Made by a program: the position numbers and the translations under genes | Notes under the pieces: generated by a model | The model's database searches: none | Told to the model about the DNA's origin: nothing | Seen by the model: only the letters and a program-made list of their open reading frames with translations | Shown: piece by piece, positions 7,735 through 38,859 of the stretch | How positions within the stretch are numbered: position 1 is the stretch's first letter | Layout of the letters: each line of letters begins with the position of its first letter | Virus record (IMG/VR): IMGVR_UViG_3300030090_001373 | Span: 1,157 to 43,982 of that record | Reading direction: 5' to 3' (one strand) | DNA from: a virus | Length of the DNA: 42,826 nt

Positions 7735-8652
7735 TTAGACTCCAGGATTTCCATACCATCCTCTCCAATCTGAAACACCGAAAGAATATCTTTCACGTGC
7801 TTTAAATCGAAGATTTCCAGTATCAAAATCTGGTTCCATTTTAGTTTGTAGAGGTGTTCTAATAAACATCTTCGTGCTATTTGGAACATCTGTTTTTACC
7901 CACCAAGCATCTCCATCATTGAATCTTCTATTTACATAGAATCCTTGAGGAACCATACCCATATGTCTTGTAGGATTGATATCGTTATCTGAACTGCTAG
8001 GTTTTCCCGGTGTGTTCAATATAACGTCAGCAATATTCCAAGAATCTACAGGAATGTGCAATGACATGGCACTTGCTCCTACTAAAATACCTCGATCATC
8101 TTTAGTCTTTTGAATTTGAGTTAAAGTTGTTTCAAGGGTACTTTGAGAAAGATCTGCATTTGTACCATTATTTGCATAGTTACTTTGTAGTCCAGCTACA
8201 ACAGTTGGGTGTGATGCTGAAATAAATGCAACACCATCTCCTATTGCAGAATTACCAGCAGTAAAAGCATTGTTATATAACTCAGCAGCTTTAGCTTGCT
8301 TAGTATTTGCCATTGCTCTTGCTAATCCTTTTGCACGTAACTTAGCGAAAGTATCATATAGATTATCTTCCATTGCTTCTTCAGTTACTGCAAAAGCTAA
8401 TGCAATAGTTTCGTTAGTATAACGAGCAGTATAAGACTCTGATGCATCATCATAACTAACTGCAGCACCTTCATTTTTAGTTGGTGCTGTTCCAAAACCT
8501 GTGAAGAGTACTTCTTCTTCAAAGGCACGATCTGAGTTCTCTATATCATATAGAGGCTCATGTTCATTGTTTACTTCTCCGTACTCCAATCCGAAAACTG
8601 CATTCAGTCCAGGAAGGAGCTCTTTACTAATACTAGCTCTATTTATAGCCAT
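7735..8652 (-). CDS. Major capsid protein, probable HK97 fold (305 aa)
   Basis: Length and position (after scaffold, before connector genes) fit a major capsid protein. Features include an extended acidic N-arm (EYGEVNNEHEPLYDIENSDRAFEEEVLF), a long spine-like helix (EEAMEDNLYDTFAKLRAKGLARAMANTKQAKAAELYNNAF), and a beta-rich C-terminal half (WWVKTDVPNSTKMFIRTPLQTKMEPDFDTGNLRFKARERYSFGVSDWRGWYG). The final segment is typical of HK97-type A-domain and P-loop endings in marine phage capsids. A terminator follows, consistent with very high expression. Subfamily not assigned. Confidence 0.8.
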   Translation of the reverse strand: MAINRASISKELLPGLNAVFGLEYGEVNNEHEPLYDIENSDRAFEEEVLFTGFGTAPTKNEGAAVSYDDASESYTARYTNETIALAFAVTEEAMEDNLYDTFAKLRAKGLARAMANTKQAKAAELYNNAFTAGNSAIGDGVAFISASHPTVVAGLQSNYANNGTNADLSQSTLETTLTQIQKTKDDRGILVGASAMSLHIPVDSWNIADVILNTPGKPSSSDNDINPTRHMGMVPQGFYVNRRFNDGDAWWVKTDVPNSTKMFIRTPLQTKMEPDFDTGNLRFKARERYSFGVSDWRGWYGNPGV

Positions 8653-10930: not shown

Positions 10931-11356
10931 TTAAAATGAACCTTTTGTTAAATTAAATGTAGGATCTAAATCTGTAGGATCTTCAACTTTCATAATTACT
11001 TGATCATCAAATAATAATAATAGTCTAACTCCTTTATAAAATAATTTTTGTCCTACATGTTTACCATAGGCAATGTAATCATTCTTCTTACACCATGCAC
11101 CATTTGGAAATTTATCTGGATCTTGATAAGCTAACTCACCAAGTTTTAATACTCTTCCAACTGTAGTTAAATATGATATATCTTCTCTTGTTGAATCAGG
11201 TAAGAGAATACCACCTTTTGTTGTTTCTTTTATACTAATAGGTCTTACAAGAATATGATAACCAGGAAGGTCTGGTAAAACTCCTGGATCTTTCTGATCA
11301 TCATCTGTAATCCACAGATCATTCTTTATACCTTTTTCTAAAGCTACTTGTTGCAT
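10931..11356 (-). CDS. GroES-like co-chaperonin (141 aa)
   Basis: The core, about residues 31-125, has the Cpn10 order: HILVRPISIKETTKGGILLPDSTRE (N-terminal strand and mobile-loop region), TTVGRVLKLGELAYQ, then DYIAYGKHVGQKLFYKGVRLLLLFDDQVIMKVEDP. It carries extra N- and C-terminal tails relative to a typical 95-100 aa GroES. Phage co-chaperonins such as T4 gp31 replace GroES on host GroEL to fold the capsid protein. The gene sits directly before the scaffold promoter, which fits that role. Function is inferred from homology by eye. Confidence 0.75.
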   Translation of the reverse strand: MQQVALEKGIKNDLWITDDDQKDPGVLPDLPGYHILVRPISIKETTKGGILLPDSTREDISYLTTVGRVLKLGELAYQDPDKFPNGAWCKKNDYIAYGKHVGQKLFYKGVRLLLLFDDQVIMKVEDPTDLDPTFNLTKGSF

Positions 11357-11553
11357 TAGTCATCATCCTCTTCAGCATAAGTTCGTTTTTTAATTATATC
11401 TTTTAAATTTTGTTTAGCCCATTCTATACCATAGATAGAGCCAACCATTTGCCTATAGTGAGAATGATCTTCTGCAGATCCTGAACCTAATTGATTTTTT
11501 AAATTCATAATTTCCTCACTATAAGCTTCGACTACTTCATCCCATATATCCAT
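11356..11553 (-). CDS. Small acidic helical protein (65 aa)
   Basis: MDIWDEVVEAYSEEIMNLKNQL, then a Gly/Ser turn, then HYRQMVGSIYGIEWAKQNLKDIIKKR and an acidic end (EEDDD). It is predicted helical hairpin-like with no catalytic motif. It overlaps the GroES-like start by one base and follows the PqqA-like gene by 3 bases. Small proteins like this between portal and scaffold are common in podovirus-like phages; function unknown. Confidence 0.6.
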   Translation of the reverse strand: MDIWDEVVEAYSEEIMNLKNQLGSGSAEDHSHYRQMVGSIYGIEWAKQNLKDIIKKRTYAEEDDD

Positions 11554-11556
11554 TGA

Positions 11557-11631
11557 TTAAATTTCTGCACATGCGTAACAGTTAATCTCAAGACCTACAG
11601 ATATTTCTTTTATATTAGGTGATTTCCACAT
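11557..11631 (-). CDS. pqqA: PqqA-like PQQ precursor peptide (24 aa)
   Basis: An ATG frame too short for ordinary gene calling, with SD AAAGGA upstream (GAAAGGATATATTATG), begins MWKSPNIKEISVGLEINCYA. Cellular PqqA peptides are 22-29 aa with W near the start, Pro near position 5, a Gly before the conserved Glu, and Glu-x3-Tyr. Here W2, P5, G13, E15 and Y19 fall at the positions I recall for Klebsiella PqqA, and the GLEINxYACA ending resembles alphaproteobacterial PqqA. In bacteria PqqD presents PqqA to the radical-SAM enzyme PqqE, which crosslinks that Glu and Tyr to begin PQQ synthesis. No pqqB-E is seen here, so the host would supply those enzymes. The gene lies in the late operon, tightly linked to its neighbours. 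Confidence 0.75.
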   Translation of the reverse strand: MWKSPNIKEISVGLEINCYACAEI

Positions 11632-11659
11632 AATATATCCTTTCTATATTATATTAATA

Positions 11660-12262
11660 TTAAGCAAATGGTGTTGCTAATGAACCATCACCATAAACTA
11701 TTCCGTCTACATGCCATACAGCAGTAGCACTTCCTTGTCCACCAGTAGCAATACCTACACAGTTAATTTTGCCACCAACAAAACGACCTTTAGTATCGGC
11801 ATCCATTACAATTTTATCATCATCTGAACCATCAGCATAAAATTGTTTAGCACTTACAGTTCCTGGTGCATCTTTATCCCAAATAAGTAAATTTGAAGAT
11901 GATGAATAAATATCATTAGCAGATGCTCCGTCAAGACTAAAAGTACCAGTAAATGTTGTACCAACAATAAATGTATAATTTAATCCTGCTGCTGCAGTTG
12001 GTAAAGTTACAACAATACCTGCTGCTCTATTTAAAAGATAAGTTGTACCTGAGTCTGAAGTTTCTACAGACTTTGTTGCAGCAGTAATACTTTCAATAAC
12101 TCCAACAGAATTAGTAGCACCTGTCATTTTCATAGTACCAGTACCAGATACATTACCACTTGAATCAATAGTAAAGTTATCGGTTGCTACTCCGTTTGAT
12201 AAGGATATCTGTTTGAATCCTCCTTCAGACCTAATAGGTCCATTAAATGTTGAGTTTGCCAT
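11660..12262 (-). CDS. Beta-rich virion surface / fibre-like protein (200 aa)
   Basis: The opening MANSTFNGPIRSEGGFKQIS and the Ser/Gly/Thr-rich body (NFTIDSSGNVSGTGTMKMTGA, GIVVTLPTAAAGLNYTFIVGTTFTGTFSLDG) are typical of phage decoration or short fibre proteins. No enzyme motif. It has a strong SD (AAGGAGG) and an 84-base leader with a stem-loop, so it may be separately controlled. The PqqA-like gene starts 28 bases after its stop. Confidence 0.6.
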   Translation of the reverse strand: MANSTFNGPIRSEGGFKQISLSNGVATDNFTIDSSGNVSGTGTMKMTGATNSVGVIESITAATKSVETSDSGTTYLLNRAAGIVVTLPTAAAGLNYTFIVGTTFTGTFSLDGASANDIYSSSSNLLIWDKDAPGTVSAKQFYADGSDDDKIVMDADTKGRFVGGKINCVGIATGGQGSATAVWHVDGIVYGDGSLATPFA

Positions 12263-12575: not shown

Positions 12576-15167
12576 TTATTTCTCCTTCTCTAGTTGTTGC
12601 ATTAGTTGTAATGTTAATTGTTCTTCATTTTTTTCTTCTTCTTGTTGTAATTTTGCTGCATTTTCTAAAGCTTTTAAATTTGCTTGCTGACCTTTTAATT
12701 CAATATCAGCTTGTTTTCCTGCAGATTGATTTAAAAGCTTTTGTTGTTCTAATTGTATTTTTTCTTCTTCAATAGCCATCTTAGCCATAACATCCATTTG
12801 TTTTAAAGCTTCTCTACTTGATCTATCTGCATCAGCTTTTTGAGATCTAGTTGCTAAAGTTACTCCAGCTTGTTGAGCATCAATTATTTGTTGTTGACGT
12901 TTAAACTCAAGTTCTTGCATATCTAATGCCATTTCAGCATTTTCTTTTACAGCATCAAGTTTTAATTTTTCTTTTTCTAATTCTACTCTTGCTTGTTCTA
13001 ATGAAACCATTTGTTGTTCAGGTGATTGAGCTTGACCCATTGCCATATTTGCATTAAGAACATCTTTAGCTGCCGCTGCCATAACAGTTTCAATAGTTGA
13101 TGGAGTACGTTGTTCTGGTGGTAACTGTTCTACCATAACTCCAGTAACTCCACTCATTTGTTCTTGATATTTCATTATAGAATGTTCTTGTACATTCGCT
13201 TCAAGAACTGGACGCAATCTTTGCATAATAGGATTCTTACCATTTATAGGATCTTGTAAGTATGCCATCTTCACTTGTATATGTGCATCATGGTTTTGTC
13301 CTGGAAATGCAGCAATTGGTAAACCTTTTGTTGCAGCCATAATATCTGATACAGGGTCCATAGGTTGTGGTTTAGGTTCTGGTGGCAATATCTCTTCCAT
13401 ATTAGGCATATTAGCAGCATTAAGTATTGTTCTATTTAATGCTTCAAGATTAAACATTCCTGGTGGAGATTGTTGTGCCATTTGTAATGCCATATTTGCT
13501 AACATCATTCTATGAGCATTACTTGGTATATTTGGATCACTTACTGGAACTACATCTACAGCTCCATCAAAATCTTTTTTGAAAATACTTCGACTTTCAT
13601 TTGGAACATCATATGGATATTCTGTTGGTAAGTAATCATAATCTATTTGTGCAATAATTTTAAATTCATTACGTTGAGCTTTGTGTAGTCTTTTGTGAAT
13701 TGCTGAAAAGAACTTACTTGATGCTTCTATTAAAGCCATAGTAGTTCCAACAGGTCCATAGGAGGCAGCATCAGAAACTATTTGTTCTGTGCTGTCTGCA
13801 AACTTCTGACCAGCAGTAGTTACAAATTGTAGCATTTGATATAGTGTTGAGGAAGGCTCTTTATAAGGGAGAGGTATAATAGCCTTTGAGAGATCTATAC
13901 CAGTTGCTTCAACCTCCTTGAACTCACCTGGAGCAATAGGTTCGTTATCACCAACCATTCTTACTCCTTTAGCCTTAAAGCCTCCTGGTAAATTTGAGAA
14001 CTGTCCAGCATCTACGAGATTACGCATTGCTGCTGTAGCTGTCATAGTTAAATTACCTAAGAAGTGTATAAGACCAAGACCATAGAACCCAAATCCTGGA
14101 ACAAATCTATAATGTACAAAATGGATTCGTTTTTCTTTGTTAGGATCATCAGGTTCATAATTTCTACGAATACTTAATATTTGTCTTGATTGTTCTTCAA
14201 TCGTTACAATGTAAGGAGCAAATTCTCCTTCTTCTGTTTCATCATCAGGAATATCAAGATGAACATGTTGTTCTAATAAAACATATTGTGGATCTGAATT
14301 ACCTGTTGAAGATAAACCAAGTATTGTATCCATCTTAGATGCAAAAGAACTCGCTGTTGGATTAGTTGCCTCTGGTAATTCTACATCAGAATAAATTCCA
14401 GAATCTAAATCTCTTTGCATATCTATTGGATTTTTGTAAATAACATGAGTATATCTATCAGCTTTACGTAAATCAGAGGCATAGTATGATACATAGAACT
14501 GATCTATTGGAATAAATTCTGCAACAGGTCTTTTTAAATGTTCATCATAATAAACTTTTTTAAATGCAGAACCTATTAATGGTAAATGAAAAAGCATTCT
14601 TTCCATTTCATCAAAGTATTCTGGCATCTGTTCAGTTAACTGATAGTTCATAAAGTTTTGAACACGATTAGCTTGTTCTTGTTTTTGAACAGATTGTGTA
14701 CCAAGTATCTGTGATTTAACAGGACCACCAGATGGGAATAATTCTTGTGAAGCTTTTGCTTGGAACTTGACTGCAGATTCTATCAGTAGGGGGTGAACTG
14801 CTGTACACGCACCTTCAAAAGGTTCACTAGCATCTTCAAGTTTTAATCCTAATAAATCAAAACCTCTTTCAAACATAGATTCCCAATCGCCTCTGGAATC
14901 TTTATCAGCTTGAAAGTTATCTAATACTTCATTAGAAATAAATGTTAGAGAATCATTATCTAAGTTATCTGCAATATTACTATACCATTGTGTTGCAGAT
15001 CGTTCTGTTTCAATTTCTGTAGACTGATCAAAATTAACAATGACTCCCCCATCATCTGATAATTCAAAAGTCGTTTCAGTATTTTCTGTTTCTTTGACAG
15101 CTTCCATAGGCACAACATTTGGTGCATCCTGTGGCATCTGTTCAAATGGATTTTTTTCTGTCGCCAT
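12576..15167 (-). CDS. Portal protein with long helical C-terminus (863 aa)
   Basis: Size and place directly after TerL mark this as the portal, the dodecameric ring through which DNA enters the head. The first about 600 residues show portal-like strings (WESMFERGFDLLGLKLEDASEPFEGACTAVHPLLIES, LPLIGSAFKKVYYDEHLKRPVAEFIP, VHYRFVPGFGFYGLGLIHFLGNL). Residues about 690-863 are Gln/Glu/Lys-rich coiled-coil sequence, as expected for a P22-type helical barrel extending into the capsid. Its ATG overlaps the stop of the 51-aa gene (TAATG). P22-like grouping is inference. Confidence 0.85.
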   Translation of the reverse strand: MATEKNPFEQMPQDAPNVVPMEAVKETENTETTFELSDDGGVIVNFDQSTEIETERSATQWYSNIADNLDNDSLTFISNEVLDNFQADKDSRGDWESMFERGFDLLGLKLEDASEPFEGACTAVHPLLIESAVKFQAKASQELFPSGGPVKSQILGTQSVQKQEQANRVQNFMNYQLTEQMPEYFDEMERMLFHLPLIGSAFKKVYYDEHLKRPVAEFIPIDQFYVSYYASDLRKADRYTHVIYKNPIDMQRDLDSGIYSDVELPEATNPTASSFASKMDTILGLSSTGNSDPQYVLLEQHVHLDIPDDETEEGEFAPYIVTIEEQSRQILSIRRNYEPDDPNKEKRIHFVHYRFVPGFGFYGLGLIHFLGNLTMTATAAMRNLVDAGQFSNLPGGFKAKGVRMVGDNEPIAPGEFKEVEATGIDLSKAIIPLPYKEPSSTLYQMLQFVTTAGQKFADSTEQIVSDAASYGPVGTTMALIEASSKFFSAIHKRLHKAQRNEFKIIAQIDYDYLPTEYPYDVPNESRSIFKKDFDGAVDVVPVSDPNIPSNAHRMMLANMALQMAQQSPPGMFNLEALNRTILNAANMPNMEEILPPEPKPQPMDPVSDIMAATKGLPIAAFPGQNHDAHIQVKMAYLQDPINGKNPIMQRLRPVLEANVQEHSIMKYQEQMSGVTGVMVEQLPPEQRTPSTIETVMAAAAKDVLNANMAMGQAQSPEQQMVSLEQARVELEKEKLKLDAVKENAEMALDMQELEFKRQQQIIDAQQAGVTLATRSQKADADRSSREALKQMDVMAKMAIEEEKIQLEQQKLLNQSAGKQADIELKGQQANLKALENAAKLQQEEEKNEEQLTLQLMQQLEKEK

Positions 15168-15356: not shown

Positions 15357-16895
15357 TTAAACTCGCCAGTATGCAACTCTTTTTTTATTTTTTTTATTAT
15401 CATCATCCCAATCAGGATCTTCTGGGTGTGTTAAGTGCCAAGATTCTTTCATGTAATGTATTGCCATAGTCATTGCATCAACTTGGTCATCATGTGCTGC
15501 ATTAGGAAACTGTAACATCTCTGTAAGTAAATCATCTGCCCAAGGTTTGTTTTTTGGTATCCAAACTTTTCCTGTTTCAATCATAGGAGATGCTGCATAA
15601 ACTCTACTTACTTTATCTCTATCAGGTGTATATTCTTGAACAGGCAGTCCAGATCTACGCATATCCTGGATTAATGATTGTCCTGATGCTTTCTTTTCTA
15701 TGATACATACATCTGGTTGAAACTGATCGTATAGTATCTGTGACATTCTTCGCAGTTCAGGATATTCATATCGTCCTTTCATATTTCCTAGTAGAATCAT
15801 GTGAGGTTGATAACTTTCAATACCTAATTCATCTTCATCATACATAGAAAAAATACCCCATGTTTGAATAACAGAGTAATCTGCTGTAGTTTTTGTAGAA
15901 AATGCTGTATCAAAAGTTTGTATAATAAAATCACATGCTGGTGGATCTTCAAATTCCCACCATTTAATCCAATTCTTTTTAATTAATCCACCTTCATCTG
16001 GTGTTGGATTCTGCATGTAGAGGGCATTCCAGTACCGAGAACCATTAGATGCTTTTATTTCTGATTCATCTATACGTAAATACTCATCTGATTTCCATTC
16101 AGGAAAGTATGATGTACCTTCTGGTAACTGTAACAGTTCTGCAGCATCCTCATCTAGCCATGCAGGTATGCGAATAACCTCCCAAGGTATTGTTTCATAT
16201 TCAGAATTTTCTTCTTGTTTTAATAACCAACCACAAAGATCATCATAATGATAACGAGTATTAATAATTAATATCGCACCATTGGGCATAATTCTAGTTC
16301 TTAGTCCTGCTGGGTACCATTCCTTAATATATCTTCTACCTGCATCTGAGTACGAATCTTCTTCGGACATGACATCATCAAGGATCGCAATGTGAGCACC
16401 TCTTCCTGCAATCTGGGATCGTACTCCTGCAGCATAGTATGTTCCTCCTTGATTTGTTTTCCATTTCCCTGCAGCTCTAACATCTGATCGTAAAGCCACT
16501 CCCCTGAAGATATCTTGAAACTGTTCAGTCGATACAATATCCCTGACAGAACGTCCAAAGTCGCTTGATAACTGGTCACTATGAGAAACTGTAAGTATTT
16601 CATGTTCTGGATTCCTTCCTATATACCATGCAGGAAACAACTTAGAACAGATAACGGACTTTGAAGATCTTGGTGGTAGAAATACCATAAGCCTTTTGAT
16701 CTTACCTTCTTCTAAATCTCTTAGTTTATTTGATATAACTTCAATATGTCTGCCCATTCTCCAATCAGATATTAATGTAGGTGCTACAAGACCAACAAAT
16801 GTCAAGAAATCTTGTTTGGCATGATAACCAATATACTTATCCATTATTAGTTTGGCATCTAAAACTGGTGGGAAAGGTTGTAATTCTGTTTCCAT
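15357..16895 (-). CDS. terL: Terminase large subunit (512 aa)
   Basis: The DNA packaging motor. The ATPase domain has a Walker-A-like loop VFLPPRSSKS, then SHSDQLSSDFGRSVR and Walker B IAILDDVMSEED. The nuclease domain has IIQTFDTAFSTKTTADYSVIQTWG, CIIEKKASGQSLIQDMR and the C-terminal HDDQVDAMTMAI with the metal-binding Asp. About 500 residues is normal for the family. The ATG at 16895 is 7 nt below the -10 of its promoter, so transcription probably starts at or next to it. An ATG at 16901 would lie upstream of that start. The small subunit is encoded elsewhere (40432-40839). Confidence 0.9.
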   Translation of the reverse strand: METELQPFPPVLDAKLIMDKYIGYHAKQDFLTFVGLVAPTLISDWRMGRHIEVISNKLRDLEEGKIKRLMVFLPPRSSKSVICSKLFPAWYIGRNPEHEILTVSHSDQLSSDFGRSVRDIVSTEQFQDIFRGVALRSDVRAAGKWKTNQGGTYYAAGVRSQIAGRGAHIAILDDVMSEEDSYSDAGRRYIKEWYPAGLRTRIMPNGAILIINTRYHYDDLCGWLLKQEENSEYETIPWEVIRIPAWLDEDAAELLQLPEGTSYFPEWKSDEYLRIDESEIKASNGSRYWNALYMQNPTPDEGGLIKKNWIKWWEFEDPPACDFIIQTFDTAFSTKTTADYSVIQTWGIFSMYDEDELGIESYQPHMILLGNMKGRYEYPELRRMSQILYDQFQPDVCIIEKKASGQSLIQDMRRSGLPVQEYTPDRDKVSRVYAASPMIETGKVWIPKNKPWADDLLTEMLQFPNAAHDDQVDAMTMAIHYMKESWHLTHPEDPDWDDDNKKNKKRVAYWRV

Positions 16896-16901
16896 AATCA
16901 T

Positions 16902-32302: not shown

Positions 32303-34237
32303 ATGGCATCATTATTAGGAAGTAATTATTTACCTACTGAATACCAATCATTTATACATATGTCTAGGTACTCACGTTGGTTAGAAGATAAAGGTAGAAG
32401 AGAAAGTTGGAGTGAAACTGTAAGTAGATTAATATCTTATTTTAAAAATCAAATAGATACAAATTATAAAGGTGTTATTAAAAATAAAGAATGGCAAGAG
32501 ATAGAAGAAGCTGTTCTATCATTACAAGTCATGCCATCTATGAGAGCATTAATGACTGCAGGTGGAGCATTAGATAGAGAGAATGTTGCTGCTTATAATT
32601 GTTCTTATATTCCTATTGATAGTCCAAAAGCATTTGATGAAGTGTTATATATACTTATGAATGGCACAGGTGTAGGGTTCTCTGTTGAAAGACAGTATGC
32701 TGACAAGCTTCCTACTATACCTGATCAAGAGTTTGAAAATACAGATGATGTTATTTCTGTTGCCGACTCTAAAGAAGGATGGGCAAGAGCATTTAGAGAT
32801 CTTATTTCTTTTTTATATACTGCACGTATACCTAAGATAAGTGTATCAAAGGTAAGACCTGCAGGTGCAAGATTAAAAACCTTTGGTGGTAGAGCTAGTG
32901 GACCTCAACCTCTTGTAGATTTATTTGATTTTACTATCAGTAAATTTAAAGAAGCTAAAGGCAGAAAGCTTTCCTCTATGGAATGCCATGATATTGTTTG
33001 TAAGACAGGTGAGGTAGTAGTTGTAGGTGGTGTACGTAGATCAGCACTTATATCTTTATCTAATTTATCTGACCAAAGAATACGTGGAGCTAAGATGGGT
33101 GAATGGTGGAATGAAAATCCACAAAGAGCATTAGCTAATAACTCTGTAGCTTATACAGAGAAACCTGATGTAGGTATCTTTATGAAAGAATGGCTATCAT
33201 TATATGAAAGTAAATCAGGTGAGAGAGGTATCTTTAATAGACAATCTGCTCAAGCAAAAGCTGCAGAGAATGGTAGAAGAGATGCATCCTGGGATTTTGG
33301 TACTAATCCTTGTAGTGAAATTATATTAAGACCTAATCAATTCTGTAACTTAACTGAAGTTGTATGTCGTTCTACTGATACTATGACTACACTAACAAAG
33401 AAAGTTAAGATCGCTACAATACTAGGTACAATACAATCTACCTTTACAAACTTTGGTTATCTTCGTAAGAGATGGCAGAATAATACAGAAGAAGAAAGAC
33501 TACTTGGTGTATCTCTTACAGGCATTATGGATTCTGTTGAGCTCAATACTATTGATGGACTTGCACCTCGATTAGAAGTGTTAAAGAAACATGCAGTAGA
33601 TACTAATAAAGAACTGGCTAAAAAATTAGGCATACCTCAGTCAACTGCTATTACGTGTGTTAAACCTTCAGGTACTGTTAGTCAATTAGTTGATAGTGCT
33701 AGTGGTATACATGCAAGACATAATCCTTATTATATTAGAACAGTAAGGGGTGATAACAAAGATCCATTGACAGAGTTTATGAAAGCATCTGGTATACCTA
33801 ATGAACCTGATTATTTAAAACCAGAACATACAACTGTATTTTCTTTTCCTATGATGTCACCTAAAGGTTCAGTATGTAGAAAAGATATGTCAGCTATTGA
33901 GCAATTAGAGATATGGAAATGTTATGCTCAACATTGGTGTGAACATAAACCTTCTGTAACTATATCAGTTAAAGAGGATGAGTGGATTCCTGTGGGTGCA
34001 TGGTGTTGGGAAAACTTTGAACATGTAAGTGGTATATCTTTCTTACCTTTCTCTGATCACACATATCAACAAGCACCTTATCAAGATATAGATGAGAAAA
34101 CTTATAAGAAATTAGTAAAAAGCATGCCAACAAATATTGATTGGGATAAACTACAAGACTTTGAAAAAGAAGATAATACGAAAGGATCACAAGAACTTGC
34201 ATGTACTGCAGGTGTATGTGAATTGGTGGACATATAA
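32303..34237 (+). CDS. nrdJ: Class II ribonucleotide reductase, B12-dependent (644 aa)
   Basis: Monomeric RTPR-like form. Cys100 (AAYNCSY), the N335-P-C337-S-E339 catalytic loop, Cys348 (NQFCNL) and the C-terminal C634-x4-C639 pair (ACTAGVCELVDI) are all present. Spacings (11 between the two loop Cys, 5 between tail Cys) equal those I recall for the Lactobacillus leichmannii enzyme. It reduces ribonucleotides with adenosylcobalamin to supply dNTPs during phage replication. No nrdB is needed. The host must make or import B12. Confidence 0.9.
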   Translation: MASLLGSNYLPTEYQSFIHMSRYSRWLEDKGRRESWSETVSRLISYFKNQIDTNYKGVIKNKEWQEIEEAVLSLQVMPSMRALMTAGGALDRENVAAYNCSYIPIDSPKAFDEVLYILMNGTGVGFSVERQYADKLPTIPDQEFENTDDVISVADSKEGWARAFRDLISFLYTARIPKISVSKVRPAGARLKTFGGRASGPQPLVDLFDFTISKFKEAKGRKLSSMECHDIVCKTGEVVVVGGVRRSALISLSNLSDQRIRGAKMGEWWNENPQRALANNSVAYTEKPDVGIFMKEWLSLYESKSGERGIFNRQSAQAKAAENGRRDASWDFGTNPCSEIILRPNQFCNLTEVVCRSTDTMTTLTKKVKIATILGTIQSTFTNFGYLRKRWQNNTEEERLLGVSLTGIMDSVELNTIDGLAPRLEVLKKHAVDTNKELAKKLGIPQSTAITCVKPSGTVSQLVDSASGIHARHNPYYIRTVRGDNKDPLTEFMKASGIPNEPDYLKPEHTTVFSFPMMSPKGSVCRKDMSAIEQLEIWKCYAQHWCEHKPSVTISVKEDEWIPVGAWCWENFEHVSGISFLPFSDHTYQQAPYQDIDEKTYKKLVKSMPTNIDWDKLQDFEKEDNTKGSQELACTAGVCELVDI

Positions 34238-34242
34238 TAGTT

Positions 34243-34698
34243 ATGGAAGTAATTCCTATTACATTAAAAAAAGCAAATGAGTTTGTTACTGTTTATCATA
34301 CGCATAATAAAAAAGTTGTTGGTTGTAAATTTTGTATTGGAGTTAATGTAAATAATGTATTAGAAGCTGTTGCTATTGTTGGTAGACCTGTTGCAAGAAA
34401 ATTAGATGATAGTTTTACAGTAGAAATTTTAAGGCTTTGTACAAAACAAAAAGGCATTAAAAATTTATGTAGTTTATTATATTCTAGGAGTTGGAAAATA
34501 TGGAAGTTGATGGGAGGAAAAAGAATAATTACCTATACATTAGAAAGTGAAAATGGAGCTAGTTTAAAAGCAAGTGGTTTTGTTATAACAGGTGAAGTAA
34601 AATCTTTTAAAAAAAATACAGGATGGACTAGCAGAACAAATAGAAAATGGCAACAAATACAAGAACAAAAAAGAATTAGATGGGAGTATGTAATATGA
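34243..34698 (+). CDS. GNAT-like acetyltransferase, XF1762-type (151 aa)
   Basis: TLKKANEFVTVYHTHNKKVVGCKFCIGVNV, EAVAIVGRPVARKLDDSFTVEILRLCTKQKGIKNLCSLLYSRSWKI and GGKRIITYTLESENGASLKASGF match the XF1762 family consensus, a GNAT-related group frequent in phages. The substrate is unknown. It starts 5 bases after the RNR stop and joins the next gene by ATGA. RNR and this gene occur together in many phages, so the link may be functional or positional. Confidence 0.7.
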   Translation: MEVIPITLKKANEFVTVYHTHNKKVVGCKFCIGVNVNNVLEAVAIVGRPVARKLDDSFTVEILRLCTKQKGIKNLCSLLYSRSWKIWKLMGGKRIITYTLESENGASLKASGFVITGEVKSFKKNTGWTSRTNRKWQQIQEQKRIRWEYVI

Positions 34699-34856
34699 CA
34701 AAAGAAAGTAAGCCTGCAATAGCTATAGAAGATGTTGCATTAATTAGAAAAGCTATAACATATTATCTTAATACTATGTTTCCAGTTGAGCAAGAAGAAC
34801 AAGAAAAGCTTATGAATATTTTTCATAGACTTGGAAGATTACAAAAAAGTTCTTGA
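34695..34856 (+). CDS. Small helical protein (53 aa)
   Basis: An ATGA-coupled frame: MTKESKPAIAIEDVALIRKA then ITYYLNTMFPVEQEEQEKLMNIFHRLGRLQKSS. It ends with its TGA inside the -35 box of the Hsp20 promoter. Helical, no recognised motif. The overlap with the upstream gene supports real translation. Confidence 0.5.
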   Translation: MTKESKPAIAIEDVALIRKAITYYLNTMFPVEQEEQEKLMNIFHRLGRLQKSS

Positions 34857-34881
34857 CATTTAAGATAAAATAGTTTATAAT
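34853..34881 (+). promoter_or_regulatory. Consensus sigma70 promoter of the Hsp20 gene
   Basis: TTGACA (34853-34858), 17 bp, TATAAT (34876-34881): both hexamers match the E. coli consensus. Predicted start near 34888, the first base of a hairpin. No sigma32-type sequence is visible. Confidence 0.85.
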
Positions 34882-34887
34882 ATAGTT

Positions 34888-34943
34888 ATAGAATGCCTTT
34901 ATGGATTCTATTATTATTAACTCGCTTATTAAGGAGAAACATT
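34888..34943 (+). promoter_or_regulatory. ROSE-like RNA thermometer in the Hsp20 leader
   Basis: The 56-nt leader folds into two hairpins. The first pairs ATAGAAT (34888-34894) with ATTCTAT (34905-34911). The second pairs CTC-g-CTT (34921-34927) with AAGGAG (34931-34936) around ATT, which hides the whole Shine-Dalgarno. Its left arm contains UCGCU, fitting the U-Y-G-C-U signature of ROSE thermometers, including the bulged G opposite the SD. ROSE elements control small heat-shock genes such as ibpA. This predicts that translation rises with temperature. Confidence 0.65.
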
Positions 34944-35360
34944 ATGCGAAACGAAATATTATTTAATACATTACCTAAGTTTTCTATAGGTTTTGATAGT
35001 TTATTTGATCAACTACATATGTTCCAGGATAAACAGGTAGATTCATATCCACCTCATAACATTATCAAGGAAGATGAAAATAAATTCTGTATTGAAATGG
35101 CTTTAGCAGGATTTAAAAAAGATGAAATCAAAGTAACGTGGCAAGAAGATTTGCTAACTGTCGAAGGAGATAGAGGTAAAAGAAATGATAATGAAAACTA
35201 TGTATATAAAAGTATAGGGCATAGGACTTTTAAAAAAATATTTTCATTGTCTGAACTCGTAGAAGTTATGGGTGCAAATTTTGAAGATGGTATATTGCAT
35301 ATTCATTTACAAAAGAATATACCTGAATCTCAAAAACCTAAAGTAATTTCTATAGAATAA
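34944..35360 (+). CDS. Small heat-shock protein, IbpA/Hsp20-like (138 aa)
   Basis: The N-terminal arm (MRNEILFNTLPKFSIGFDSLF) leads to an alpha-crystallin domain (YPPHNIIKEDENKFCIEMALAGFKKDEIKVTWQEDLLTVEGD, then YVYKSIGHRTFKKIFSLSELVEVMGANFEDGILHIHLQKNIPESQKPKVISIE). The ending resembles bacterial IbpA. It binds unfolding proteins without ATP. I chose the ATG at 34944 because AAGGAG lies 8 nt upstream; the in-frame ATG at 34893 is inside the leader. It has its own promoter and a downstream hairpin. Confidence 0.85.
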   Translation: MRNEILFNTLPKFSIGFDSLFDQLHMFQDKQVDSYPPHNIIKEDENKFCIEMALAGFKKDEIKVTWQEDLLTVEGDRGKRNDNENYVYKSIGHRTFKKIFSLSELVEVMGANFEDGILHIHLQKNIPESQKPKVISIE

Positions 35361-35369
35361 GGGATGGTG

Positions 35370-35405
35370 GGCAGAGGATTATTAACTTAGTTCTCTGCCT
35401 TATTA
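35370..35405 (+). terminator. Probable terminator after Hsp20
   Basis: GGCAGAG (35370-35376) pairs with CTCTGCC (35393-35399) around a 16-base loop, followed by TTATTAT. A moderate T-run; it lies directly after the Hsp20 stop, closing a single-gene unit. Confidence 0.6.
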
Positions 35406-35410
35406 TATGC

Positions 35411-35548
35411 ATGAGAAAAAATAGTTTTGAATTTAAAAAGTTAAATTTTTTTAAAAAGATTACTTCTATAGGTAATTCAAATAGAAGTAGACCAACTAAC
35501 AAACATAAAAAAAGAATGTTTAAAACATATAAAGGTCAAGGTAAATGA
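35411..35548 (+). CDS. Small basic conserved phage protein (45 aa)
   Basis: MRKNSFEFKKLNFFKKITSI then GNSNRSRPTNKHKKRMFKTYKGQGK. The pattern 'TSIGNS..SRP.NKHK.R.FK.Y.GQG' matches a small basic protein I recall near sugar or structural genes in other marine phages. It ends ATGA into the glycosyltransferase gene, supporting a real gene. Function unknown. Confidence 0.6.
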   Translation: MRKNSFEFKKLNFFKKITSIGNSNRSRPTNKHKKRMFKTYKGQGK

Positions 35549-36339
35549 AGAAACAACAACAAATTAATACAGTTTATATTGGATATGATGAAAGAGAAGA
35601 TACAGCTTATGAAGTTTTAAAATTTTCTATTGAACGTACAGCTTCGAAACCAATTCAAGTTCTACCATTGAAAAAAAATATACTAGAACGTATGGGAATT
35701 TATAATAGAAAATCAGAGATGATAAATGGACAACCTTATGATACAATAGATGGTAGACCTTTCTCTACTGATTTTAGTTTTAGTAGATTTTTAGTACCTG
35801 CTTTAAATATGTATCAAGGTAAAGCTTTATATATGGATTGTGATATGTATATACGTTCAGACATCTCAGAATTATTTGAGATATGTGATATGGATTATTA
35901 TCCTTTATGGTGTGTTCATCATAAGTATGAACCAGAAAAATCTGTAAAGATGGATGGCAAAGAACAACATCCTTACCCAAGAAAAAACTGGTCAAGTCTT
36001 ATGATGTTTAATTGTGGACATTCAGAAAATGCAAAGCTTACCCCTAAAGAAGTTAATACACAAACAGGTAGATGGTTACATAATTTTAGTTGGTTGCCTG
36101 ATAAAGAAGCAGACATAGGTAGAATACCTGAAGAATGGAATTGGTTAGATGGACATTCAGATCCAGAATTAAAAGCAAAGAATGTACACTTTACTACTGG
36201 AGGTCCTTGGTTTGAGAAATGGAAACCAAGAGTATCACATAGAGCAGATGGAGATTATGCTGTTGAATGGTGCAATGAAGCTAAGTGGTTACAAATTAAT
36301 GGCTACTTAGATCAAAATAAGGATTATATGATAAGATGA
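35545..36339 (+). CDS. GT8-like glycosyltransferase (264 aa)
   Basis: GT-A fold features: VYIGYDEREDTAYEVLKFSI, a hydrophobic strand ALYMDCDMYI with a D-x-D metal site at residues 98-100, and SLMMFNCGH, EADIGRIPEEWNWLDG and NVHFTTGGPWF, resembling GT8-type galactosyl or glucosyl transferases. It would move a sugar from a nucleotide-sugar to an unknown acceptor. It is the first gene of a cluster with a second putative transferase and two methyltransferase domains (to 39535), which points to modification of a virion or host surface glycan. Confidence 0.7.
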   Translation: MKKQQQINTVYIGYDEREDTAYEVLKFSIERTASKPIQVLPLKKNILERMGIYNRKSEMINGQPYDTIDGRPFSTDFSFSRFLVPALNMYQGKALYMDCDMYIRSDISELFEICDMDYYPLWCVHHKYEPEKSVKMDGKEQHPYPRKNWSSLMMFNCGHSENAKLTPKEVNTQTGRWLHNFSWLPDKEADIGRIPEEWNWLDGHSDPELKAKNVHFTTGGPWFEKWKPRVSHRADGDYAVEWCNEAKWLQINGYLDQNKDYMIR

Positions 36340-36557
36340 ATACATTAAAACAAAATTTATATCAAGCATTATATAATCATTACCAAGCTAAAAAAGATAA
36401 AGCTATGTTTCAATTAAATTTATCTTTTCAAAACCCTGTGGCAATAGGAGAACATCCACAGCTTGTTGATGATTGTATTAAATTAGTAGATGATGTTGCG
36501 TCTGCAGATGAATCTATTCAAACATTAGAAAGTTATTTTGGAGATATGAATGAGTGA
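36336..36557 (+). CDS. Small helical protein in the glycan cluster (73 aa)
   Basis: MNTLKQNLYQALYNHYQAKK then DKAMFQLNLSFQNPVAIGEHPQLVDDCIKLVDDVASADESIQTLESYFGDMNE. The heptad-like C-terminus suggests a small protein-binding helix. ATGA coupled to the upstream transferase and overlapping the large gene by 8 bases. It is probably translated with them; function unknown. Confidence 0.55.
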   Translation: MNTLKQNLYQALYNHYQAKKDKAMFQLNLSFQNPVAIGEHPQLVDDCIKLVDDVASADESIQTLESYFGDMNE

Positions 36558-38859
36558 GGTAAGATTTGTTACGTCCTTTAATGAGGATATGTTAAAGACT
36601 ACATCTTCACATTTTTTACAATCACTTAAAGATAATGTAGAACCAAGTGTTAAACTATCTGCATATCACCATGATTGTAAATTAGATGCGTATTCATTAG
36701 CTGAATCAAATGCTTTTACATTTAAAAATTTACATGATGTTAAAGACCATGAAGATTTTATAAAAAATAATCAAGAACATAATGGTACAGAAAATAATTC
36801 TATTCCATATAATATTAAGTTAGATGGTTTACGTTGGTCGCATAAAGTATTTGCATTAACAGAAGAAGCTTTTACATTAGCCAAACAAAATGTAGAAGCA
36901 GGTTGGTTAATATGGATTGATGCTGATACATATTTTAAAAAGAGATTAACAAAAGAAGATATATTATTTATGCTACCTGAAGGAGCTGACATGGTTTATA
37001 ATTCTGCAGATCCTTACTTTGTTGCCTTTAATTTAAATAAACAACCACCTTTAGATTTACTTGGAGATCTTCGAGAAGCGTATACTTCTGGTGAATACAT
37101 TCAATATAGAGAATGGCATGATAGTTTTATCATGGAAAGATTAATAAATATTTATTCTAAACATGGTATGAAAATACATCAAACAACTTTAATGAATAAT
37201 TATTTATATCATTTCCAAGGACTATATGATCCAACTAAGAATGCAGTAAGAGATAGTAAAGGCAATAGATTATTTCCATTATCTGATGATACAACACCTG
37301 ATATAAAACCAAATAGATATTCTCAGATTGTAGATTTAATTAGACATTACAAACCTAAATCAATTATTGAAACTGGTACATGGAATGGTGGTCGTGCTAT
37401 TGAAATGGCTTTAACAGTATTTGAATACTCTGATACAATAGATTATGTTGGTTATGATTTATTTGAAGATGCTACTGTTGAAACAGATCACGAAGAGTTT
37501 AATAGTAAAGCTCATAATAAAATGTCTGCTGTTCAAAAAAGGTTAGAAGAATTTGCTGAACATGTTAAAGAAAATAAAAATAAAACTTTTACATTTAAAT
37601 TAATTAAAGGTAATACAAGAGAAACTTTAACAGATCAAAAAAGTAAATTTGATATGGCATTAATAGGTGGTGGTAATAGTATAGCTACTGCTAAACATGA
37701 TTTTGATTGTGTTAAAAAATGTGATGTTGTTATAGGAGATCATTACTTTAGAGCTGATGATGATAACCTAATTCCTAATAATGCTTATCAAGGAGTTAAT
37801 GAAGTATTTGAAAGCATTGATAAAAAGAAATTTCGTAGACATGTATTACCATCAGGCGATAGAGTAAAAGGTGGTGGCTTCACACATTTGATTGTTGCCT
37901 TGATGAATAAAAAATTAGAAGGTATACCTGCAGAATTACAACGAGTTCCTATTGTTGTTAATCCTAGAGATTGTGTACCAAAAGATTATATTAGAGATAA
38001 TATAAAAAATAATATGAAACTAATAAAAGAAGATAGATGGATTGATAAATATAGTTTACATAGAGATACAGCTTTGATTGTATCAGGAGGTCCTAATGTA
38101 GATTATGATGAAATAAAAAAAGTTATTAAAGATAATCCTGATTCTATTGTGCTCTGTGTTAAACATAGTTATCCTGCTTTACTTGAGAATGGTATTAAAC
38201 CCTGGGGATGTGTTGTATTAGATCCTCGTTCTATTGATGGTATAAGTACACATGGTATTAAAAGAAAAGATTTATTTAAAACAATAGATCCTTCAACAAA
38301 ATTTTTAGTTGCATCTATGACTGATCCATCTGTAACAAAATATTTACATGAACATACAGATAACATCTGGGGTTGGCACGCATTTACAGAATCACTAAGA
38401 GATGATGAAGATAGAAAAACTCCAACTCAACATAATCAAGTTAAGATTAGAGAAGATTTAGGTATGACACAAGGAACTACTTTAATTACAGGTGGAACAT
38501 GTGCTGCCATGAGAAGTATTGGTATTTTACATACACTTGGATTCAGACATATACATCTCTTTGGGTTTGATTGTTCTTTGAAAGATGAACCAACAGAAGA
38601 TATGAAAAAAGAAACTACTGGTGCTGAAGATGAAGAAGCAAGACCAAAGTATTTTCAAGTATCAGTAAGTAAAGAGAAACCTTTCTGGACAACAGGTGAA
38701 CTTCTAGCTATGGCACAAGATTGTGAAAGAACTTTTGCTGATACTTCTATGGGTATTAATTTTGTTTTTCATGGTGAAGATACATTAGTTTCTGAATTGT
38801 GGAAGCTTTCACAGGCTAAAGAAAACTTACGTAATTATAAGGATGTACTAAATGTATAA
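36550..38859 (+). CDS. Three-domain glycan-modification fusion (769 aa)
   Basis: Three modules are visible. Residues 1-240: a GT-A-like domain with AGWLIWIDADTYF (D-A-D at 124-126) and NSADPYFVAFN. Residues 255-470: a class I SAM methyltransferase-like domain (KPKSIIETGTWNGGRAIEMAL, TIDYVGYDLFE, FDMALIGGGNS). Residues 505-760: a segment resembling DUF115/MAF proteins (TALIVSGGPNVDYDEIKK, GIKPWGCVVLDPRS, TTLITGGTCAAMRSIGILHTLGFRHIHLFGFDC). DUF115 proteins act in flagellin glycosylation or pterin metabolism. The order suggests one polypeptide linking sugar transfer and methylation. Substrate unknown. Confidence 0.65.
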   Translation: MSEVRFVTSFNEDMLKTTSSHFLQSLKDNVEPSVKLSAYHHDCKLDAYSLAESNAFTFKNLHDVKDHEDFIKNNQEHNGTENNSIPYNIKLDGLRWSHKVFALTEEAFTLAKQNVEAGWLIWIDADTYFKKRLTKEDILFMLPEGADMVYNSADPYFVAFNLNKQPPLDLLGDLREAYTSGEYIQYREWHDSFIMERLINIYSKHGMKIHQTTLMNNYLYHFQGLYDPTKNAVRDSKGNRLFPLSDDTTPDIKPNRYSQIVDLIRHYKPKSIIETGTWNGGRAIEMALTVFEYSDTIDYVGYDLFEDATVETDHEEFNSKAHNKMSAVQKRLEEFAEHVKENKNKTFTFKLIKGNTRETLTDQKSKFDMALIGGGNSIATAKHDFDCVKKCDVVIGDHYFRADDDNLIPNNAYQGVNEVFESIDKKKFRRHVLPSGDRVKGGGFTHLIVALMNKKLEGIPAELQRVPIVVNPRDCVPKDYIRDNIKNNMKLIKEDRWIDKYSLHRDTALIVSGGPNVDYDEIKKVIKDNPDSIVLCVKHSYPALLENGIKPWGCVVLDPRSIDGISTHGIKRKDLFKTIDPSTKFLVASMTDPSVTKYLHEHTDNIWGWHAFTESLRDDEDRKTPTQHNQVKIREDLGMTQGTTLITGGTCAAMRSIGILHTLGFRHIHLFGFDCSLKDEPTEDMKKETTGAEDEEARPKYFQVSVSKEKPFWTTGELLAMAQDCERTFADTSMGINFVFHGEDTLVSELWKLSQAKENLRNYKDVLNV

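Follow-up and report, generated by a model that had tools for sequence, protein, structure and literature searches.

A lone PqqA-family gene in a phage virion operon, a candidate supplier of the precursor for host PQQ synthesis

The peptide PqqA is the stoichiometric raw material of the cofactor PQQ, one PqqA being used per PQQ formed, with PqqB–E acting as catalysts, and the crosslink chemistry in the peptide acts on a glutamate and a tyrosine. In the open-licence literature, the only virus-encoded pqq genes that we found are those of two reports. The Lake Baikal phage VP_266, described in 2020, carries PqqA and a methanol dehydrogenase in one phage (PMC7678222), and a survey of reservoir sediments, in the available part of its text, lists pqqA, pqqE and pqqD as viral phosphorus-cycle genes (PMC13188868). 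On the bacterial side, overexpression of pqqAB in Acetobacter pasteurianus raised PQQ by 29%, and that of the full pqq cluster eightfold, i.e. far above pqqAB (PMC7936290). Here we analyse a stretch of 42,826 nucleotides from the record of a marine phage (the window), for which an initial annotation had proposed that a phage provides the precursor peptide alone.

A PqqA-family gene between portal and co-chaperonin genes

The gene, its ribosome-binding site and its neighbours are arranged as follows:

7735..8652, minus strand: major head protein (PHROG 371), same direction as pqqA
10931..11356, minus strand: GroES-like co-chaperonin (PHROG 3188 and PF00166), same operon
11356..11553, minus strand: 65-aa gene without a family match in PHROGs or Pfam (ORF list), directly downstream of pqqA after a 3-nt gap
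11557..11631, minus strand: pqqA, 24-aa PQQ precursor peptide MWKSPNIKEISVGLEINCYACAEI (translation, PF08042 and TIGR02107, conservation in synteny)
11638..11644, minus strand: Shine-Dalgarno sequence GAAAGGA, 6 nt before the ATG of pqqA (read from the sequence)
11660..12262, minus strand: 200-aa gene without a family match in PHROGs or Pfam (ORF list), directly upstream of pqqA with a 28-nt gap, same operon
12576..15167, minus strand: portal protein (PHROG 1216), same direction as pqqA
15357..16901, minus strand: terminase large subunit (PHROG 38), same direction as pqqA

The reading frame runs on the minus strand from 11631 to 11557 as ATG, 23 codons and TAA. The encoded peptide has all five residues that had been named as its PqqA signature—W2, P5, G13, E15 and Y19—with the strand now added to that description, and the Shine-Dalgarno sequence is as good as had been claimed; Glu15 and Tyr19 are the predicted crosslinked residues. 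A profile search, proposed in the initial annotation as a check, places the peptide above the cut-offs of both curated PqqA family models, with 28.2 bits against a cut-off of 20 for the equivalog TIGR02107 (E 1.2e-6) and 23.0 bits against 21.1 for PF08042, and it is the only PqqA match in the 43,982-base virus record. When used as a tblastn query, it retrieved alphaproteobacterial pqqA genes from plasmids, several of them so annotated, and found no match among GenBank phages.

The absence of pqqB–E alongside the gene, also part of the original description, holds as well: host PqqB–E as tblastn queries gave no match in the window, and PqqE, PqqD and PQQ alcohol dehydrogenase had none in the entire 43,982-base record. 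Thus, this is not a PQQ biosynthesis operon, in which pqqB, C, D and E would lie beside pqqA. The gene sits in a minus-strand virion operon, with the portal gene on one side and the GroES-like gene on the other, and the plus-strand half of the window encodes a primase-helicase, a DNA polymerase, a ribonucleotide reductase and Hsp20. By terminase and head protein, the nearest cultured relatives include the Pelagibacter phages HTVC023P and HTVC027P and phage DSL-LC04, with the head protein alone also leading to the Roseobacter phages CRP-901/902; all of them show less than 60% identity in these proteins.

Several other genes of this phage deserve mention in their own right. It combines an Hsp20 (34893-35360) with the GroES-like co-chaperonin (10931-11356), and the product of 36550-38859, 769 aa long, has an MptE-like domain and weakly matches a methyltransferase; a glycosyltransferase-like gene (35545-36339) lies nearby.

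Selection on the gene and its gain or loss among relatives

Such a very short gene, which moreover has relatives without it, might be a chance open reading frame or a functionless captured fragment of host DNA. Because selection for the motif itself was to be avoided, loci were fetched via the portal and 200-aa genes, requiring just a short MW-x2-P frame, which yielded 26 loci, the window being one of them, and 14 distinct DNA sequences. W2, P5, G13, E15 and Y19 are invariant across all of them, as is the entire stretch of residues 12-19, and a purine-rich ribosome site precedes the gene in 26 of 26 copies. Both tests that the initial annotation had suggested here come out in its favour, i.e. 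Glu15 and Tyr19 are kept in every syntenic relative, and synonymous sites are favoured, with pN/pS = 0.21 for the 14 distinct DNAs. A chance origin is excluded by the conservation of pqqA in independently fetched syntenic loci and ruled out by this selection result; with the model scores, the conserved ribosome site, the recurrence in many phage groups and the precise presence or absence of the unit also speaking against it, we regard it as hardly credible. Model scores above cut-off, a Glu-x3-Tyr motif kept in relatives, purifying selection and a translation start together confirm, as far as sequence can tell, that the window gene encodes a PqqA-family peptide and is a real, selected gene.

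The comparison of closely related loci shows how cleanly this unit comes and goes. Loci L129 and L118 are near-identical on both flanks and differ by pqqA plus its ribosome site, and the difference between L088 and L089 is the pqqA coding sequence. Among 57 window-type loci spanning portal to GroES, pqqA is present in 26 and absent from 31, a count in which at least three of the 26 pqqA-bearing loci had been fetched by the pqqA pattern itself. With 31 of 57 loci lacking it in the stretch compared, pqqA is dispensable to window-type phages. Its position also shifts within the virion module of this clade, lying upstream of the portal gene in L220 and elsewhere in L116.

Two peptide types, their spread and their likely hosts

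At least 120 IMG/VR stretches match a DNA pattern shaped on the peptide and at least 119 match the exact GLEINCYACAE pattern; a degenerate DNA pattern one base short, serving as a chance control, gave two matches only. Phage PqqA comes in two types, i.e. GLEIN[CS]YACAE (alpha), to which the window peptide belongs, and GFEVTMYVMNK-like (beta/gamma). The exact alpha core occurs at 141 loci, 69 of which have structural genes in common with the window and 72 none in the stretch compared. Clustering of the pqqA loci by shared ORFs at 50% identity gave 32 groups, a rough figure since the loci are short, and weaker thresholds chained the loci together through common phage genes.

In beta-type phages, pqqA is found in unrelated positions, often alone and on the strand opposite to its neighbours. 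Of 98 leaders in this group, 37 contain TATAAT, compared with 9 when shuffled, and 50 contain a hairpin of at least 6 bp, compared with 18 when shuffled; this enrichment suggests that the beta-type gene has a transcription unit of its own. These varied settings bear on the idea that the phage peptide is an offshoot of PqqA with another job—a signal, a virion-associated peptide or a PqqE-modified product that is not made into PQQ—which would suit the place of pqqA among virion genes and its relocation within the virion module in L220 and L116. In addition, however, its sequence is constrained as in host PqqA, with no drift, and we therefore consider such a different function improbable.

pqqB–E are absent from every viral pqqA locus examined, with a mislabelled Acinetobacter contig as the positive control for this search. 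Among 50 mostly larger records, PQQ alcohol dehydrogenase occurs in one and PqqE over cut-off in none; PqqE-model matches far below cut-off in two large phages were taken for other radical-SAM proteins. In the 72-kb virus record L214, pqqA occurs together with a PQQ-dependent alcohol dehydrogenase that passes the family cut-off (positions 34049-35731 of that record).

A precursor without its enzymes at every viral locus could also be read as a decoy or inhibitor, which would occupy PqqD/PqqE and lower host PQQ or divert the pathway, and for which a binding peptide alone would be enough. An inhibitor would gain by losing reactivity, yet the reactive residues never vary: along with the remaining core, they are kept without exception in the syntenic set, and two pattern scans of IMG/VR, which covered most but not all replacements and demanded the remaining core, found no beta-type variants without Glu or without Tyr. 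Moreover, some phages encode exactly the same peptide as a host, and a PQQ dehydrogenase co-occurs with pqqA in L214 and in Baikal VP_266 (PMC7678222). Taken together, this makes a decoy an unlikely function, and a less likely one than substrate supply.

In bacteria, the exact GLEINCYACAE core was found at 26 loci, all in Alphaproteobacteria and 21 of them with pqqB adjoining; L301 is a full pqqABCDE operon with this core. Most of these bacteria have low-GC marine genomes of 1.0-1.7 Mb, labelled Pelagibacterales, Rhodospirillaceae or Alphaproteobacteria, and the low-GC marine genomes all fall within one order of the genome collection; 10 of 16 such genomes encode a PQQ alcohol dehydrogenase over cut-off. 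The likely hosts thus carry pqqABCDE and PQQ dehydrogenases, which answers a question that the initial annotation had raised. In twelve cases, a phage peptide has exactly the sequence of a host peptide, while its DNA differs from the nearest host copy at 8-9 of 72 bases, a pattern that speaks against contamination and in favour of constraint at the protein level. The window gene shares 60 of 72 bases with the host copies closest to it, and the host of the window phage likely belongs to this low-GC alphaproteobacterial order, a placement made from the peptide only. pqqA would then be a host-type gene whose remaining pathway resides in this putative host, as in an auxiliary metabolic gene.

Some low-GC marine Alphaproteobacteria also have a second or stand-alone pqqA (L279, L280, L282, L284 and L303), with no pqqB–E in the stretch examined. 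The one in L279 has a LysR regulator and EmrAB-type efflux genes as neighbours, and those in L282 and L284 are followed by a terminator-like hairpin. In lacking adjoining pqqB–E, such bacterial copies (L279, L282) resemble those of the phages.

A beta-type query of GenBank phages found pqqA in Venkman, P19250A, MEP301, MEP401, MEP402 and four Melnitz genomes, all with hosts among the Methylophilales or Methylophilaceae, and in one uncultured phage. All of the isolated Methylophilales phages checked, i.e. the P19250A phage and every complete OM43 isolate that PMC10580990 names, with the partial HIM624-A left out, carry a beta-type pqqA, and they represent several unrelated phage groups. The gene falls into an unannotated gap in Venkman (L314), P19250A (L316), MEP301 (L317) and MEP401 (L318), and in Melnitz-1 (L315) a hypothetical gene is annotated over it on the reverse strand. 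The expectation that such a gene is easily missed is thus borne out, since pqqA is mostly unannotated in phages, isolates included. The word PQQ is absent from the papers on MEP301 and MEP401, and the Melnitz paper names PQQ solely as a medium supplement (PMC9004378). The presence of pqqA in these isolates fits the idea of a link to methanol oxidation. In Venkman, pqqA is followed by a terminator-like hairpin.

Two Acinetobacter phage matches were set aside, the one inspected adjoining pqqBCDE and looking bacterial: L319 (CAKLQF020000010.1), labelled Acinetobacter phage MD-2021a, has ppk and pqqBCDE at the locus and looks like bacterial chromosome.

Substrate supply and comparison with known systems

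Overall, our data support the reading given in the initial annotation, with the window pqqA probably being a phage auxiliary metabolic gene for a working PqqA, which would provide, during infection, the peptide that PQQ synthesis in the host uses up. At the sequence level, this reading draws on membership in the PqqA family, retained reactive residues, purifying selection, operon position, the lack of maturation genes and the existence of matching bacteria. From there, we infer that the gene is expressed, and when, that host enzymes process its product, that PQQ is raised or maintained and that the phage gains in fitness. The gene would be read late, together with the virion genes, and its peptide would receive the Glu15–Tyr19 crosslink from host PqqE and PqqD, after which host PqqB and PqqC would complete PQQ. 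In a phage that shuts off host transcription, PqqA might be the first to run short: each PQQ uses one up, the enzymes are catalysts of which the cell already has a supply, and a gene of 75 nt may therefore suffice to keep PQQ synthesis going once host transcription declines. If so, PQQ-dependent methanol or alcohol dehydrogenases would stay loaded and fuel virion production.

The pqqAB result in A. pasteurianus is a partial precedent for such precursor supply. The far larger effect of the full cluster in the same organism speaks against it, as does the dispensability of pqqA in window-type phages, and the precursor as the factor limiting PQQ here is putative. We lean slightly towards the broader view that supplying the lone precursor, which would limit PQQ during infection, is a widespread and repeatedly acquired strategy of unrelated phage groups in at least two bacterial classes. 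The same leaning extends to gene callers missing lone pqqA in the phages of methylotrophs and alcohol oxidisers, marine and freshwater, that depend on PQQ. Our findings suggest that a gene of some 75 nt, passed over by standard annotation, lets phages direct how abundant ocean bacteria oxidise methanol and alcohol. With OM43 host–phage pairs in culture and their phages carrying pqqA, this idea is directly testable.

The breadth of precursor-only pqqA and its presence in isolates appear to be unreported in the open-licence literature, in which we found no account of the precursor alone, of its conservation or of its presence in all these isolates. The reservoir-sediment survey shares with our study the record of virus-encoded pqq genes and differs, in the available part of its text, in listing annotations without an analysis of the peptide (PMC13188868). 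For VP_266, viral PqqA was likewise proposed to support PQQ-dependent methanol oxidation, but this phage is a member of a methylotroph virus population and has the dehydrogenase gene as well (PMC7678222), whereas the window phage has the precursor alone, in its alphaproteobacterial type, and the present study adds conservation tests and a spread over many phage groups and isolates. Compared with bacterial PqqA (PF08042, TIGR02107), the phage peptides are alike in length, in W-x2-P and the G-x-E-x3-Y core and in scoring above cut-offs, and their alpha and beta types match host lineages; unlike it, they are encoded in a virion operon or alone, without pqqB–E. A further parallel is cyanophage psbA, with which the phage makes good a host component that infection uses up. 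In both cases the phage would replace what infection exhausts, but psbA encodes a protein subunit, whereas PqqA is a peptide consumed for a cofactor. If this holds true, pqqA would be an unusual metabolic gene, in that the phage would contribute not an enzyme but the material from which a cofactor is made.
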